DNA of 46,829 nt from the NCBI GenBank assembly GCA_903885605.1, contig CAISJD010000024.1, positions 1 to 46,829 on the forward strand. The letters run 5' to 3'. Both the position numbers and the translations under genes were made by a program. The stretch is from an uncultured Chthonomonas sp. Lineage in GTDB: Bacteria; Armatimonadota; Chthonomonadetes; Chthonomonadales; CAJBBX01. The notes below the pieces were generated by a model. It made no database searches, was not told where the DNA came from, and saw only the letters and a program-made list of their open reading frames with translations. Positions 36,045-44,746 of the stretch are shown here, in pieces (positions within the stretch are counted from its first letter, which is position 1; each line of letters opens with the position of its first letter).

Positions 36045-36896
36045 TTGCCGTCTCGCGTTTGGACCAGACGTGCTCGCGTGGTCCCCGGGTGCCGATCACC
36101 GTGGGCGCGCCGAATCGTGGCCACCCTCGTGCTCTGGTGCGGAGCCCTCGGCTACGCCGGCATGTTGCCCGACCGGCCGGCCCGCGCCGTGCCGGGGCGC
36201 GGCGTGCCTCCCTGCGAGGCCCTGGAGCAGGGCAACCCCGGCAGGCGCGAGATCGCGCTGACCATAGACGACGGTCCGCACGATCCCATCGCCCGGCAGT
36301 TGCTCGACATCCTCCGCGCCGAGGATGTGCGCGCTACCTTCTTCGTGGTCGGCAAGCGCGTTCGCGAGCATCCCGGCGTGGTAGCGCGTATGGTCAATGA
36401 GGGGCATGAGGTCGGGAGCCACACGGCCACGCACCGGCGGCTGGACACGCTCTCGGATGTCATGATCCGGGCGCAGCTGCTTGGTTGCGAGGCGGCTGTC
36501 GAGTCGGCGTGCGGCCGCCGCGTGAACCTCCTCCGTCCGCCCGGCGCCCGCTACAACGCCGCGACCGCCAGGATCGCCGAGGAGGGCGGCTACAGGCTGG
36601 TCGGATGGACGGTCGCGGCGAAGGACTTCGTCGAGGTGCCCTCTGACCTGATCGTCGACCGCGTGCTGGCATCCGTTACCAACGGGAGCATCATCCTTCT
36701 GCACGATGACTACCCGGAGACCGTGACGGCCCTGCCGCGCATCCTCCGAGCGCTGAAGCGCCAGGGCTACAGGTTCGTCACCGTCTCTGAGATGCTCGGC
36801 CGCCTGTCGCCGCCTATCCGTGTGGAGCGCAATCCTGTGGCTCCGTCAGCGCGGTCGACGGCGTTCGCGGAACCCGGCACGGCTGCTGGACCGTAA
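36045..36896 (+). CDS. Polysaccharide deacetylase (CE4/NodB domain), membrane-anchored or exported
   Basis: A 283-residue protein with an N-terminal hydrophobic helix (IVATLVLWCGALGYAGM, about 24-40). It carries the five NodB motifs: TIDDGPHD (D75, D76), GSHTATHRR (the two metal His), RPPGARYN, VGWTVAAKDF and SIILLHDDYP. Such enzymes remove N- or O-acetyl groups from peptidoglycan, chitin-like or other envelope glycans. The start is TTG at 36045 with GGGAGA about 12 nt upstream; a GTG 12 codons later is an alternative. Its 3' end contains a possible ECF promoter for the sigma operon 30 nt downstream. Confidence 0.92.
   Translation: MPSRVWTRRARVVPGCRSPWARRIVATLVLWCGALGYAGMLPDRPARAVPGRGVPPCEALEQGNPGRREIALTIDDGPHDPIARQLLDILRAEDVRATFFVVGKRVREHPGVVARMVNEGHEVGSHTATHRRLDTLSDVMIRAQLLGCEAAVESACGRRVNLLRPPGARYNAATARIAEEGGYRLVGWTVAAKDFVEVPSDLIVDRVLASVTNGSIILLHDDYPETVTALPRILRALKRQGYRFVTVSEMLGRLSPPIRVERNPVAPSARSTAFAEPGTAAGP
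36869..36895 (+). promoter_or_regulatory. Candidate ECF-sigma promoter for the sigma operon
   Basis: GGAACC (36869-36874), 17 bp, CGTA (36892-36895). This resembles the GGAAC / CGT pairs used by SigW/SigE-like ECF factors. It lies inside the last codons of the deacetylase gene and would give a leader of about 25 nt before the sigma start, as expected for autoregulation. It is short and found by eye. Confidence 0.4.
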
Positions 36897-36926
36897 CTGA
36901 GATCAAGCCGACATAGGATGGGTGCC

Positions 36927-37523
36927 ATGGACCTGACTACACCATTCAGACGTGAAGCCCGGAACGATGCCCGCGAGTTCGACGGATTGGTGCGCAAGTG
37001 CCACCGCCAGGCCTATAACATCGCCTACCGGCTGGCCGGCAACCACGCCGACGCCGAAGACCTGACGCAGGAAGCGTTCATTCGTGCGTACAGGTTCTTT
37101 GACCGATACAATCGCCAGATGCCGTTTGAGAACTGGCTATACAGGATTATCTCGAACGCCTTCATCGACAGCATTCGCCGCCGTCCCAAAGCGCGCCTCC
37201 AGTCGCTAGACCAGCCGATCATGCGGAACGGCATCGACACCCAGGTCTACCTGGAGTTGCCCGACGAGGGCGCGAACCCGGAAGGCCAGATCATGGAGCG
37301 AGAGATCGATGAGCCCCTGCAGAGGGCGCTCTCCACGCTCCCCCACGATTTCCGGCAGGCTGTCGTCCTGGCGGATATCGAGGGCTTATCCTATGAGGAG
37401 ATCGCGGAGACCATGGGCTGTTCCCTCGGCACTGTGCGTAGCCGGCTGCATCGCGGACGGAAGGCGCTACGGGCTGCCCTGGGCCCCGGGTTCACCCGCA
37501 GGTCCATCGGAGCGTTGCCTTGA
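36927..37523 (+). CDS. ECF-type RNA polymerase sigma factor
   Basis: A 198-residue sigma70-family factor with only regions 2 and 4. Region 2 is FDGLVRKCHRQAYNIAYRLAGNHADAEDLTQEAFIRAYRFFDRYN then FENWLYRIISNAFIDSIRRR. Region 4 is ALSTLPHDFRQAVVLADIEGLSYEEIAETMGCSLGTVRSRLHRGRKALRAAL, with its helix-turn-helix. It looks like the SigW/SigE (RpoE-like) group. I chose the ATG at 36927, since AGGA lies 9 nt upstream; another ATG is at 36918. The stop overlaps the anti-sigma TTG start, so the two are made together. Confidence 0.94.
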   Translation: MDLTTPFRREARNDAREFDGLVRKCHRQAYNIAYRLAGNHADAEDLTQEAFIRAYRFFDRYNRQMPFENWLYRIISNAFIDSIRRRPKARLQSLDQPIMRNGIDTQVYLELPDEGANPEGQIMEREIDEPLQRALSTLPHDFRQAVVLADIEGLSYEEIAETMGCSLGTVRSRLHRGRKALRAALGPGFTRRSIGALP

Positions 37524-38038
37524 ACTGTCGCAGAGTGCACGGCCTTCTTTCGGCCTATATTGATCGCGAGGTTACGGGGCGCGAGATGCTCGTCATCCGG
37601 GCGCACCTGGCCCAGTGCCCCGATTGTGCCGACGAGTGCGAGTCGCTCTCATGCACCAAGGAAGCCGTCGCCGCCCTGCGCACGCGGGCTCCGCAGTCGG
37701 ACCTGGAGACCCTGATCCTCACCCGCGTCGCGCGGGAACGCCGCGCACCGGCCGTCTGGCCGGCCCTCGCCGTCGCTTCGTCGGACCGGGTACGGCAGGC
37801 CAGGTTAGCGGCACTCGCTGCGGCCCTTGCGGTCACGGCCCTGGCGCTCTCTGTGCGCAACACCCTTGTGGATCAGGCCGATAGGCGCGACGCGCTCGCC
37901 GTCCACCATCCCGCCGGCCAGGCCGGCTCGGTAGCCGACTGGAACGTTGAGGCGCTGCACGGTGATGTGGATCGGCAGTCGGTATCGACCTGGGCTGTGC
38001 CTGCCTCCCGGGTCGAGACGCTCGGCTCCCAGCCGTAG
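37520..38038 (+). CDS. Zinc-finger (zf-HC2) transmembrane anti-sigma factor
   Basis: A 172-residue protein starting with TTG inside the sigma stop codon. The N-terminal ZAS domain has CRRVHGLLSAYIDREV, then the HxxxCxxC zinc motif as HLAQCPDC (about 29-36). This type of domain holds its cognate ECF sigma. One transmembrane helix (RLAALAAALAVTALALSV, about 92-110) and a short outer part follow. So it should sense or relay an envelope signal and release the sigma factor on cleavage or conformational change. Confidence 0.92.
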   Translation: MNCRRVHGLLSAYIDREVTGREMLVIRAHLAQCPDCADECESLSCTKEAVAALRTRAPQSDLETLILTRVARERRAPAVWPALAVASSDRVRQARLAALAAALAVTALALSVRNTLVDQADRRDALAVHHPAGQAGSVADWNVEALHGDVDRQSVSTWAVPASRVETLGSQP

Positions 38039-38057
38039 CACGAGGGCGTAGCCCCGC

Positions 38058-39323
38058 GTGAGCCGCTCCGCTACCATAGCCCTGGCGCTCTTCTGCCTCG
38101 CCGGCCCGGCAGTCCACCCGGCGGCGACTGCCGTGGGCTCAGGCGGGCCGACCGTCACTGAAGCCTGGGAGGCCCTCTCCCGTGGGCTCCAGAGCGTGCC
38201 CCTCACCGGCGAGAAGCTGGTCATCACAACCGATGCCGAGGGGGATTTGCGTGTCCTGACGCGCCGGGTGGCCCACGCGTCCGACGGGCGCAACATGCAC
38301 AGCACGATCAAGCCCCGCGCCGAGAAGGGCAGCTTCGCGTGGGACGACGGCATCACCATTCGTACCTATGACGCCCAGACCGGTACCATGCTGATCCGCC
38401 GTAGCCTGGAGCGACGCCCTTCCCGCACCACGGCCGCCTGGAGGCTGAACCTCGTCAAGCGCAGCTATAACCTGGTCGTGGAGGGGGTCGAGCGGGTGGC
38501 CGGTCGCAAGTGCCTCCGCCTGGCGCTCGACCCGTACAGCCGCGCGGGCCTGACCATCCGCGTCTGGCTCGACCGGGCCACCGGCGCCGAGTTGCGCCGG
38601 GAGGAGGCCGACCCCGCAGGCAACTCCGTCCACGCTGAGATGTTCACCTCTGTCTCCATCCTTCCGCCCGGTCGCGACCCGGCCGTATCGTGCGCCATGC
38701 CTCGCCGCGCCAGGGTCGAGAGCTTGATCGGCGTCCGCGCATCCAGCGACCTCCATGAGCTCTCTCGGCGGGCCTCGTTCCACGTTCGCGTACCGGCCCA
38801 GGCGCCCGCGGGCTTCGAGTTTGAGCAGGGAACCGTCGCCACGGTGGGTGGCCGAAAGGCGGCCGTGCTGCGGTACACGAACGGCCTGGCCGCGCTGACG
38901 CTGGTGGCAACGCCGGTGCCGCCGCGCACGATGGCCGCGCCGGAGCATCGGGCCAGGCGGATCGCCGCGGGTCACTGGCGAGTTGACTGGTCAGGCCCCG
39001 ATATGGACGTGGTAGTTATGGGTCCATGCTCGCCCGAGGAGTTGCTTGGGATGATGGCCGGCTTCGATGCGGCCTCGGAGAGCGCCTTTGTCAGGCGGAT
39101 GGCCGATGAGAACGAGGCGGCAGGTCGACTCATCTCCTCCATGCGAGGATCAGGACGCACACGTGACACCGTCCATGCGATCCTAGAGATCGCCCGGCGC
39201 TCCGGCAAGCCCGTCGAGACGGTCTGGGCCTACGTTCGCGCCGGGCATGGCTGGCAGAGCGCCGCCTCGCGGTTCGGCATCCCGGCATCGGTGATCCAGG
39301 GACACCTGAACGGCAACCGCTGA
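38058..39323 (+). CDS. RseB/MucB-like periplasmic regulator with C-terminal helical module
   Basis: A 421-residue exported protein (signal ATIALALFCLAGPAVHPAATA). The N-terminal part (about 35-215) has the LolA-like fold of RseB/MucB: GLQSVPLTGEKLVITTDAEGDLRVLTRRVAH, SFAWDDGITIRTYD, YNLVVEGVERVAGRKCLRLALDP. A second domain (about 225-315) fits the RseB C-terminal region. Beyond it is an extra segment (about 340-421) ending KPVETVWAYVRAGHGWQSAASRFGIPASVIQGHL, which looks helical and helix-turn-helix-like. RseB in E. coli binds the anti-sigma RseA outside the membrane and shields it from proteolysis. The GTG start lies 19 nt after the anti-sigma gene, in one operon. Confidence 0.82.
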   Translation: MSRSATIALALFCLAGPAVHPAATAVGSGGPTVTEAWEALSRGLQSVPLTGEKLVITTDAEGDLRVLTRRVAHASDGRNMHSTIKPRAEKGSFAWDDGITIRTYDAQTGTMLIRRSLERRPSRTTAAWRLNLVKRSYNLVVEGVERVAGRKCLRLALDPYSRAGLTIRVWLDRATGAELRREEADPAGNSVHAEMFTSVSILPPGRDPAVSCAMPRRARVESLIGVRASSDLHELSRRASFHVRVPAQAPAGFEFEQGTVATVGGRKAAVLRYTNGLAALTLVATPVPPRTMAAPEHRARRIAAGHWRVDWSGPDMDVVVMGPCSPEELLGMMAGFDAASESAFVRRMADENEAAGRLISSMRGSGRTRDTVHAILEIARRSGKPVETVWAYVRAGHGWQSAASRFGIPASVIQGHLNGNR

Positions 39324-41752: not shown

Positions 41753-42838
41753 CTAGTTGCCGCCCGATGCGCCTCCCTGCGGCTGCAGCCAGTAGGTCAC
41801 CTGCAGCGTCCCGCTACCGGTGGTCTTCTTCAGCAGCCCCTTCTGCACGTAGATGTAGGGCGGCGGCAGCTTGGTGGCTGTCACCGTGTAGTCGCCGCTC
41901 GGGACCACCAGCTCGGCCCGGCCCGCTGCATTGGTGGGCGCATAGACGTCCACCGCGCCGGACGCCGACCGTGCGCGCACCGTGGCGCCGATGACCGGCT
42001 TCATGCTGGAGGGCTCCTCCACCACGAGCGCCTGGACGGTCAGCGGAGTGGCCGCCGGAACGGCGATCTCGTACCACCCACTGGCTGCGGGCACGTCGCC
42101 CCTCAGCGACAGGCGCCCAGCGACCTGGTTGGCGGCGCCGACGAGGGCCCAGACGCCGGTGGCCGGGTTCAGGTGGTAAAGGCCCGCGGAGGTGATCGCG
42201 GCGACGACGGTGGCGTCGCCCGTCCACTCCAGGGTCAGCGGCTTGGCTGGGTTCAGCGTCGCCGCGGAGCCCGATGGCTCGGTGATGCTGAGATAGATCC
42301 GAGCCAGCGTCGTCCGGGCCGGGCCTGCGGCCGACCCCGGCATCGATAGCGCATACCCCGGATCCGCGGGCAGGAATGTCGTCAAGCTCCGGCCAATCGT
42401 CGCGGCCGTGGTCACCAGTGTCGAAGCCGCCATGGTGGCCGATGTGTTCAGGCCGTCCGCCCGGTTGGAGGTGGCCGTAAAGGGCTCCGCCGTCGGTCGG
42501 TCGACGATGGGCTCCGCCGCGCAGAGAGTCGGGTGCCACTGGCTGGTCTGGCCGATCGCCACCGGAACCCGCGCCACGGAGGGCGAGTAGCCCGCCGCAC
42601 GGTAGGTCACCACGGCGGCAGCCTCCGGCAGGTCATTCAGGCGGTAGAGGCCGTCGCCGTCCGTCGTGGCGGTGGCCCCAAGGGCGCTCACCGAGCATCC
42701 GGCGATCGGCCTGCCCGCTGCGTCCTTCACGAAGCCCTGCAGCGACCCCGAGGTGGCGCCGCCTCCGCCGCATCCCCAGAGCGCGGCCACGGCAGCGGCC
42801 GACGCCAGGGCCGCCGTCATGCGCCAGTACTGGCTCAT
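41753..42838 (-). CDS. Lipoprotein with CarboxypepD_reg-like beta domains
   Basis: A 361-residue lipoprotein: TAALASAAAVAALWGC is a signal peptide with lipobox (LWGC, Cys about 23) followed by a glycine-rich GGG linker. A transthyretin-like regulatory domain (about 31-110) reads LQGFVKDAAGRPIAGCSVSAL, TDGDGLYRLNDLP. A central beta-rich segment resembles PKD/ZU5-like surface modules (LTLEWTGDATVVAAITSAGLYHLNPATGVW), and a second carboxypeptidase-like domain (about 275-350) ends near KKTTGSGTLQVTYWLQ. Its ATG overlaps the stop of the YjbH-like gene (ATGA), so the two are translated together. Cell-surface or outer-membrane attachment is likely. No catalytic residues seen. Confidence 0.83.
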   Translation of the reverse strand: MSQYWRMTAALASAAAVAALWGCGGGGATSGSLQGFVKDAAGRPIAGCSVSALGATATTDGDGLYRLNDLPEAAAVVTYRAAGYSPSVARVPVAIGQTSQWHPTLCAAEPIVDRPTAEPFTATSNRADGLNTSATMAASTLVTTAATIGRSLTTFLPADPGYALSMPGSAAGPARTTLARIYLSITEPSGSAATLNPAKPLTLEWTGDATVVAAITSAGLYHLNPATGVWALVGAANQVAGRLSLRGDVPAASGWYEIAVPAATPLTVQALVVEEPSSMKPVIGATVRARSASGAVDVYAPTNAAGRAELVVPSGDYTVTATKLPPPYIYVQKGLLKKTTGSGTLQVTYWLQPQGGASGGN

Positions 42839-44703
42839 CGAAGCACCTCCGAGCCGGCGCCGAACCAGTTCCCGGAAGGCAGTAGCCGGTAGCGGTTCGT
42901 GAAGCCGTCGATCAGGTCCGGTCCGATGGAGAGCTCCTGAGCGGTCTCATCGGCCAGGTAGAGGAAGTTGGACGACTGCATGGCCGACCGCAGCGTGTAG
43001 TCCAGGTAGCTGGGAGTGCGGACCCGCAGCGCCGATGGCCGCGAGGGCTGCACCCTTGGGCCGAGCGGCAGCGAGACGCGGACGCCGATGGTATCGGACC
43101 TCGTTGTGGAGCGCAGGGCGAGAGCCACCTGCGTCTGGCCGAAGAAGCGGACCAGGTCGATCCCCGCGCCGGAGTCGGACGAGACGAACCTGCCGCCCAA
43201 CAGCCGGACGTAGGCGTTCCATGCGGGCAGCGAGTAGATGGCCTCGGCCACGCCGAAGGGCAGGTTCTCCAGCAGGTCATTGTTGGCGAAGCCGCCCGTG
43301 GCCCGCAGCAGGAGCCGCGGGGTGGGCGCGTGGAGCAACTCCAGCACGGCGCCGTCCGACGAGCCCGGGTACCGGCCGGCCGAGACCTGCGCGAGCCAGC
43401 CCGCCGCCGGCGCGAAGGCGTAGGCGAGGATGGCGCGGTCGGTGCGGAGCTTCTTCGATTCGTACCGGTAGAGGTCGCCGCCCAGGGGCAGGCTCATGCG
43501 GGCGTTGGCGACGGCGCCGCGGCTCAGCTGCACAGTGGCTTCGGGGCGGACCGAAATCCCCACCTTGGCCACCCCGGTCTCGGTGCCGATCTGGGTCTTG
43601 ATGCCGGGGCCGATCTCCAGGTCCGTGCGCCCGGTGATCGCGTTCAGAGCCGCGCCCTGGAGGCCGGCGGCCTTGCCGGGCAGGAAGACGCGGTCGCACT
43701 GCGTGGCGAACTGGTCGGCGGACATGCTGCCCGAGGCGAACGAGCGGTAGGCCGCCGGAGACGTGGCGACCTCTGCCAGCGCGATGCCGCGCCGCTGGGG
43801 CACGAGCCGCCAGGTGGTGGCTTCCGCCGGGGCGCTTCCGGCGAGGACGCCGAAGACCGCCAGCATACCGTCGGCCTCGTCTAGCGTGTAGACGCGGTTC
43901 TCATAGGCGACCGTCAGCGTTCCGCCGGAGATCGCGGTGCGGACGTCCTCCATGCCCAGCGCGGCCACGGCCTGCGCCACGGCGTCGGCTGAGCCCGAAG
44001 ATGCGGCGGACGCCGTCGCCGGGCGGCGAACCGGCAGGCTGGTGAGCGGGGCCGCGAAGCCCACGGTCACTGCCGTACCCGCGTTCGTGTCGGCGGCGCG
44101 GAGCCAAGTGCGGCCATGCTGCAGCACCACGCCGGCGTTGGCGCGGTCGCCGTCGAATTCGGCCTGCAGGGTGAGCCACGGGTAGAGCGAGCACTGGGCG
44201 CCGGCCAGCAGGCCCTTGTTGCCCCCTGCCGAACCGCCCAGCGTCAGGGCCGCGCGGTCGTTGAGCACGCGCCACGTTGCCACGGCGTAGGCGGTGTTCT
44301 CGCTCTCGAAGTTGCGGCCGGCCTCGACGACGCCGACGGCGAGGGCGGGCTTGCCGGCGCCGCCGGGCCGGATCTGGTACTTCCCGTGGAGGGCCAGGTC
44401 GGTTGCCAGCGACGGCGAGCTGAGGCTGAGCGAGAGTTCGGTCCTGGGCAGCACGCTCATGCCGACGGAGTAGTTGACGCGCCCTGCCATGGACTTCGAC
44501 AGCCCGCCGTAGGGCGGCGTCCAGACCAGGTGGTAGAGCCCGTCAGGCAGGATCTCGGCGGTCGGGACGCGGATCAATCCGGTCAGACCGTTGATCGTAG
44601 CCGGCTGCGTAAGGGGCGCGGGCGGCTCCTGGCAGAGTGCGCCGCAGGCCACAAGGGCCAGCCCCGCCGCTGCCGAGAAGGGTAGCGCCGGCGATCTGGG
44701 CAC
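42835..44703 (-). CDS. YjbH-like outer-membrane beta-barrel lipoprotein
   Basis: A 622-residue protein. The signal peptide ends in a lipobox-like LVAC (about residue 20). The mature part begins PATINGLTGLIRVPTAEILPDGLYHL, a strong mark of YjbH proteins, which are linked to exopolysaccharide production. It continues with many alternating beta strands (RTELSLSLSSPSLATDLALHGKYQI, ALVAG-type strands, and VALALRSTTRSDTIGVRVSLPLG) and an aromatic-ended barrel. I chose the GTG at 44703, since GAGGTGA, a 7-nt match to the ribosome, lies 5 nt upstream; a GTG three codons earlier sits inside that site. It has a good promoter at 44747-44775. Confidence 0.83.
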   Translation of the reverse strand: MPRSPALPFSAAAGLALVACGALCQEPPAPLTQPATINGLTGLIRVPTAEILPDGLYHLVWTPPYGGLSKSMAGRVNYSVGMSVLPRTELSLSLSSPSLATDLALHGKYQIRPGGAGKPALAVGVVEAGRNFESENTAYAVATWRVLNDRAALTLGGSAGGNKGLLAGAQCSLYPWLTLQAEFDGDRANAGVVLQHGRTWLRAADTNAGTAVTVGFAAPLTSLPVRRPATASAASSGSADAVAQAVAALGMEDVRTAISGGTLTVAYENRVYTLDEADGMLAVFGVLAGSAPAEATTWRLVPQRRGIALAEVATSPAAYRSFASGSMSADQFATQCDRVFLPGKAAGLQGAALNAITGRTDLEIGPGIKTQIGTETGVAKVGISVRPEATVQLSRGAVANARMSLPLGGDLYRYESKKLRTDRAILAYAFAPAAGWLAQVSAGRYPGSSDGAVLELLHAPTPRLLLRATGGFANNDLLENLPFGVAEAIYSLPAWNAYVRLLGGRFVSSDSGAGIDLVRFFGQTQVALALRSTTRSDTIGVRVSLPLGPRVQPSRPSALRVRTPSYLDYTLRSAMQSSNFLYLADETAQELSIGPDLIDGFTNRYRLLPSGNWFGAGSEVLR

Positions 44704-44746
44704 GTTGGTCACCTCTCAGAGTGGATTTTCAGCTGCAACAGCCGTC

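Follow-up and report, generated by a model that had tools for sequence, protein, structure and literature searches.

Several described operons invite comparison with the one considered here. In Pseudomonas aeruginosa the gene order is algU-mucA-mucB-mucC-mucD, with mucD encoding an HtrA protease, and in mycobacteria it is sigE-rseA-htrA; for the Bacillus subtilis SigW-RsiW pair we know of no RseB guard. Guarding by RseB has so far been studied in Proteobacteria, where the protein guarded is RseA or MucA. RseB of Escherichia coli and MucB of P. aeruginosa are described as shielding the anti-sigma factor from an HtrA-type site-1 protease, with lipopolysaccharide or lipid lifting the shield (PMC4598750, PMC8545111, PMC8103513). 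The B. subtilis case as outlined in one of these accounts has RsiW, a membrane anti-sigma factor of the zinc-finger ZAS family, destroyed by sequential proteolysis with PrsW as the site-1 protease (PMC4598750). The subject here is an operon at positions 36869-39323 of a 46,829-nucleotide stretch of DNA (‘the window’) from the 5.6 Mb draft assembly of an uncultured Chthonomonas sp. of the phylum Armatimonadota, with genes for an extracytoplasmic function (ECF) sigma factor, a ZAS anti-sigma factor and an RseB-like protein. It is a ZAS-based Armatimonadota variant of the known RpoE/RseA/RseB circuit, and probably works as an RseB-guarded proteolytic switch for a SigE-like sigma factor. The variant is new to the extent that the open-licence full-text literature, a scope that most subscription journals fall outside, yielded no description of RseB in Armatimonadota or of RseB together with a zf-HC2 anti-sigma factor. 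For C. calidirosea, many ECF sigma factors are noted in an account of its genome (PMC4959169).

The third protein is a full two-domain RseB/MucB homologue, because its family profile spans both MucB domains and its fold ranks MucB above LolA; a merely LolA-like identity is rejected on the same two grounds. The Pfam model MucB_RseB (PF03888) is passed (34 bits, cut-off 22.3) with part of the protein covered, and the model for the C-terminal RseB domain (PF17188), used alone, has no match to the window protein and a sub-threshold one to the paralogue L017 (23.6 against 30.1 bits). A profile made from 29 relatives matches MucB (6in8) at E 1.1e-22 over profile positions 32-338, both domains included, and E. 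coli RseB at E 5e-17. A placing of the predicted structure outside the LolA/RseB fold had been named in a preliminary description of the window as one outcome that would tell against the proposed circuit; what emerged is an RseB/MucB fold. Foldseek ranks 1-15 for the model (mean predicted local distance difference test score 78.6, from an input alignment of five sequences) are all RseB or MucB, and MucB 6jau_A aligns over 262 residues spanning model positions 31-342 with Z 21.6 and a root mean square deviation of 3.4, the best non-RseB chain reaching Z 16.8 over 161 residues and the best named LolA Z 14.9. The RseB homology is stronger than a reading of the sequence alone could reveal. Ahead of the two RseB domains, which lie at about residues 31-342, is a stretch that by eye is signal-like, and the remaining residues form an added helical part in the models. 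This C-terminal extension is present in all 14 aligned sequences of the window's class and absent from the shorter paralogues examined and from the matched part of RseB/MucB; alone it finds no significant fold match in the PDB (best E-value 1.2).

The anti-sigma factor had been considered a zinc-finger ZAS protein and not an RseA homologue, and this is borne out. Its sole Pfam match is zf-HC2 (48.4 bits against a cut-off of 22.2), the zinc motif HxxxCxxC aligns as H29-x3-C33-x2-C36, and no RseA-type domain is found, the RseA equivalog model giving 14.9 bits where 165 are called for. Among 24 relatives, zf-HC2 is present in 23 and the RseA family in none; the profile of the protein resembles ChrR, RsiW and RsrA domains. 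Hydropathy gives one transmembrane segment (residues 94-112), beyond which lies an outer tail of 60 residues (113-172). Its H147 is shared by all 14 sequences of the window's class. The tail is conserved and RseB-associated. In a leave-one-out test, scores above 3 bits were obtained with 28/34 RseB-linked tails, 1/23 RseB-less ones and 6/34 shuffles. A profile trained on 18 RseB-linked tails lifts 30 of 43 dereplicated linked tails, held out from training, above the 99% shuffle level; none of 22 tails from RseB-less operons exceeds that level with the same profile. In both tests near copies were removed or grouped and the remaining loci counted separately, with kinship persisting as a caveat. 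The cytoplasmic part of the anti-sigma factor shows no difference between RseB-linked and RseB-less operons. The presence of a histidine alone was rejected as a marker of RseB linkage (32/34 linked and 20/23 unlinked tails have one). The RseB-like protein would bind this periplasmic tail of its own anti-sigma factor, to which the RseB-associated profile is an indirect pointer. In MucA, W158, R162 and H170 of the bound tail helix are reported as required for MucB binding (PMC7400510); equivalence of the window's H147 to a MucA residue is not claimed.

The three-gene unit recurs across Armatimonadota. An RseB-like protein is found in 53 of 61 related genomes, and at all of 31 RseB-like loci (L001-L031) there is a same-strand ECF sigma gene upstream, with a ZAS gene between the two in 30; the remaining locus, L025, has an anti-sigma-like gene without the zinc motif. 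A further 58 loci, one of which (L230) is a repeat of the L015 locus, include a sigma gene in 55 and an open reading frame (ORF) with an anti-sigma domain in 55. Two of the three loci missing a sigma gene, L215 and L226, are at contig ends and L244 has none; these counts leave out four RseB-like places with internal stops. The window's own genome has three RseB-like genes over the cut-off, each adjoining a sigma gene and a ZAS gene, among seven zf-HC2 matches over the cut-off in all, and the operon is best read as existing in parallel units. Among the control genomes PF03888 also matches one from Deinococcota and two from archaea, and the domain itself is therefore more widespread. Some individual loci merit mention in their own right. 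At L244 (G026:C463) neither a sigma nor an anti-sigma gene was found near the RseB-like gene, despite about 2 kb of upstream sequence. The RseB-linked anti-sigma of L025 (ORF 638-1340 in reverse-complement numbering, reverse strand) has HLRTNAEDA where the zinc motif has been lost, and a typical tail. The N-termini of the RseB-like proteins of L021 and L028 resemble by eye lipoprotein signals, a hydrophobic stretch being followed by a cysteine, and some paralogues may be lipid-anchored.

A set of orthologous sigma loci, one per genome and comprising the window and 40 relatives chosen by best sigma match, was available for 41 of the 61 genomes. RseB follows the anti-sigma gene in 15 of the 41, with HtrA next in 6 of the 15. 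The 26 RseB-less loci comprise 14 with the order sigma-ZAS-HtrA, nine with sigma-ZAS alone, two without a ZAS gene as called by the script and one cut by a contig end; HtrA identity was confirmed by Pfam in four named loci. On a sigma tree the RseB linkage is clustered yet spread over several lineages, a pattern that either gain or loss may have given; the seven linkage changes counted there are an overstatement, because L172 was scored as unlinked to RseB through an artefact of a contig end.

Upstream of the sigma gene, GGAAC-N18-CGT occurs in 34 of the 41 orthologous regions, against 0.27 in dinucleotide shuffles. With a spacer of 17 or 18 the count is 39 of 41, and most of these sites lie 47-61 nt ahead of the point at which the model starts. 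Judged by this recurrence, the window's copy is the predicted own promoter of the sigma operon, and a conserved one. Paralogous sigma genes have GAAC-N16-CGTC in 17 of 55 (0.07 in dinucleotide shuffles); a first scan with mononucleotide shuffles (32/97, mean 5.46) is superseded by the dinucleotide shuffles and a scan of spacings. Where the RseB operon lacks HtrA, GGGAAC-N18-CGT lies shortly upstream of a stand-alone htrA gene in nine of nine genomes of family f1, the site background being 0.013 per 150 nt. These nine loci, from five genera, are among 30 HtrA loci taken, and most of the other 21, some of which are operonic copies, have no such site just upstream.

The genome also holds candidates for the rest of a cascade. 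A search for homologues of RseP and DegS had been proposed as a check. An RseP equivalog is present (TIGR00054, 226 bits against a cut-off of 147.55), as are three HtrA-family proteases with N-termini that by eye are hydrophobic, one of them passing the broader Do/HtrA model (417.3 against 416.2); a DegS equivalog was not found in the genome. Omp85 and LpxC genes are as expected of a diderm, and the sigma relatives are from Armatimonadota, so that the earlier attribution to a diderm lineage is supported.

From these parts a sequence of events can be proposed. The ZAS domain would retain the sigma factor on the membrane's inner surface, and the RseB-like protein in the periplasm would cover the outer tail, blocking a site-1 protease of the HtrA family. 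An envelope signal would remove the guard, the probable ligand being a lipid or lipopolysaccharide-like molecule in the RseB cavity. With the guard gone and HtrA active, the tail would be cut, an RseP-type protease would then cut within the membrane, and the freed sigma factor would act at GGAAC-N18-CGT promoters to transcribe htrA and the operon that encodes it. The anatomy of the operon closely fits the guard mechanism of E. coli and P. aeruginosa, and by this analogy the operon would respond to envelope stress.

Likeness to E. coli rpoE-rseA-rseB(-rseC) is in the gene order, the two-domain RseB fold, the membrane anti-sigma factor with an outer tail and the RseP-type protease encoded in the genome. 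Unlike in E. coli, the sigma factor is outside the RpoE equivalog and apart from RpoE in the tree, the anti-sigma factor is ZAS and not RseA-type, the genome is without a DegS equivalog, the RseB-like protein has its helical extension and the -10 element is CGTAA. With P. aeruginosa there is shared order of sigma, anti-sigma and MucB, plus the HtrA gene that comes after in six of the 15 RseB-bearing orthologous loci, the differences being the ZAS anti-sigma factor and a tail without detectable sequence match to MucA. As for mycobacterial sigE, the nearest sigma factors outside the phylum are mainly actinobacterial and Armatimonadota relatives have sigma-ZAS-HtrA, whereas the window has the RseB-like gene, for which the RseB profile had no match in the 65 loci L058-L122 (flanks of up to 3.5 kb, sigma strand). 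The membrane ZAS anti-sigma factor is the feature shared with SigW-RsiW, whose PrsW sets it apart from the window.

The explanations that compete with guarding differ in what they ask of the third protein or of the zinc motif. It could be a lipid or lipoprotein carrier of the LolA/LprG kind, a mere member of the regulon with no guarding role, as its N-terminal domain also fits the LolA and LprG folds, its contact with the anti-sigma factor is proposed from sequence, and RseB is absent from some orthologous operons; however, both RseB domains are present, RseB and MucB rank above all LolA, and it is the tail of the anti-sigma factor, and not the cytoplasmic part, that tracks the presence of RseB, which leaves a plain carrier rather unlikely. 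The same gene content would be predicted if the RseB-like protein were a receptor whose ligand binding promotes cutting of the anti-sigma factor, an activator in place of a guard, and activation triggered by a ligand is known from the anti-sigma factor RsiV, to which lysozyme binds (PMC4183432), but RseB and MucB as described inhibit cutting (PMC4598750, PMC8545111) and an activator is regarded as quite improbable. Sensing of redox state or metal in the cytoplasm in the manner of RsrA or ChrR, with proteolysis not the main route, is the least probable of the three and only barely to be entertained: the zinc motif and the profile likeness to ChrR, RsiW and RsrA domains are in keeping with it, yet the anti-sigma factor spans the membrane and its outer tail is conserved, the zinc of most ZAS proteins is described as thought to be structural (PMC4598750), and the relative at L025 has lost the motif.

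Several results weigh against an RseB-guarded proteolytic switch and temper its standing. A tail profile trained on paralogues is weak on the window's class (median 0.9 versus -0.6 bits), with three of 17 tails above the 95% shuffle level of 2.7 bits. Searches of the PDB with the tail profile, and likewise with the L015 tail, which we took to look MucA-like, brought up neither RseA nor MucA chains at E values up to 10, and sequence homology of the tail to RseA or MucA is not claimed. Neither RseB nor HtrA adjoins the nine orthologous operons of sigma-ZAS composition, and every HtrA of the genome scores below the cut-off of the DegS equivalog (best 258.5 against 422.95). LptD was not found in the genome, an absence that carries no evidential weight because the family model matches just two of the controls, E. 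coli and Caulobacter. A broad regulon of the sigma factor is not shown, and none is claimed because exact GGAAC-N18-CGTAA, at four places in the whole genome, is no commoner than in a backward control; a regulon derived from that exact pattern was accordingly rejected. Two of the other exact sites, L261 and L263, are 32 and 76 nt before exported-looking ORFs, and this may be chance.

A wider proposal, possible but on balance somewhat doubtful, is that RseB guarding is a portable module extending beyond RseA and Proteobacteria. Armatimonadota ZAS anti-sigma factors would carry a short tail recognised by RseB, a genome would have several guarded sigma channels in parallel whose promoter codes differ, the window's class using GGAAC-N18-CGTAA and the paralogues GAAC-N16-CGTC, the new helical RseB domain of the window's class would be an extra sensor, and in the family of the window HtrA would be kept within the operon or else driven by the same promoter. 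A pairing of RseB with ZAS across a diderm phylum would reveal which components of the circuit can be exchanged, natural comparisons are provided by one sigma locus that occurs with RseB, HtrA, the two together or neither of them, and the conserved promoter makes the circuit open to direct testing by reporter fusion.

Features of the operon and its upstream neighbour in the window
Feature	Position	Strand	Basis or remark
Polysaccharide deacetylase	36045..36896	+	Pfam, 126 bits; adjoins sigma operon
Predicted ECF-type promoter of sigma operon	36869..36896	+	-35 GGAAC 36869-36873, 18 nt, -10 CGTAA 36892-36896
ECF sigma factor, SigE-like, 198 aa	36927..37523	+	Pfam Sigma70_r2/r4_2, NCBIfam, tree
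ZAS (zf-HC2) anti-sigma factor, TTG start, 172 aa	37520..38038	+	Pfam zf-HC2, alignment, hydropathy
Extracytoplasmic anti-sigma tail	37856..38035	+	RseB-associated tail profile; candidate RseB-covered and protease-cut segment
RseB/MucB-like protein, 421 aa, GTG start	38058..39323	+	Pfam PF03888, profile against PDB, fold
C-terminal helical extension of RseB-like protein, residues 343-421	39084..39320	+	Alignments, models

The sigma factor matches Pfam Sigma70_r2 at 75 bits and r4_2 at 70, passes the ECF model TIGR02937 (NCBIfam, 124 bits against a cut-off of 42.9) and fails the RpoE equivalog TIGR02939 (125.8 against 236.15); the best NCBIfam model is SigE PRK09647, under its cut-off. Named relatives are Armatimonadota, chiefly Chthonomonadales, and the nearest sigma factors outside the phylum, by scan and tree, are mainly actinobacterial. 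The phylogeny that had been suggested as a check has the orthologous sigma factors clustering together and adjoining actinobacterial SigE-like ones, with the window's closer to these than to E. coli RpoE, in a tree of 68 rows made by a quick method, with several long branches, after removal of partial and duplicate sigma factors. The three genes placed at 36869-39323 in the preliminary description are there; what needs revision is the beginning, as 36869 onward is the conserved promoter and the sigma start is most likely ATG 36927, which coincides with the beginning of the family model, and not the ORF opening at 36918.

By the ORF list all three genes run in the same direction, and their rpoE-rseA-rseB order, claimed previously, is upheld by Pfam. 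Their coupling, also claimed, is equally evident in the ORF coordinates, with the stop of sigma overlapping the TTG start of the anti-sigma gene in TTGA, and 19 nt between the anti-sigma stop and the GTG start of the RseB-like gene. Beyond the latter's stop the next gene, for a URO-D protein, runs the opposite way, and the operon therefore ends there. The upstream polysaccharide deacetylase was likewise correctly recognised, and one is upstream of sigma in 16 of the 41 orthologous loci.

Among smaller observations, the sigma promoter runs into the deacetylase gene, the TAA of CGTAA being the deacetylase stop codon. The helical extension (window interval 39051-39320) includes a conserved GxxWxxxARR-like segment, and its helix-turn-helix matches are weak (HTH_psq E 0.058), with no Pfam family over its cut-off. 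Further along the window, 42835-44712 is a gene for a YjbH-like exopolysaccharide protein, and its neighbour at 41753-42838 encodes a protein with a carboxypeptidase regulatory domain (Pfam).

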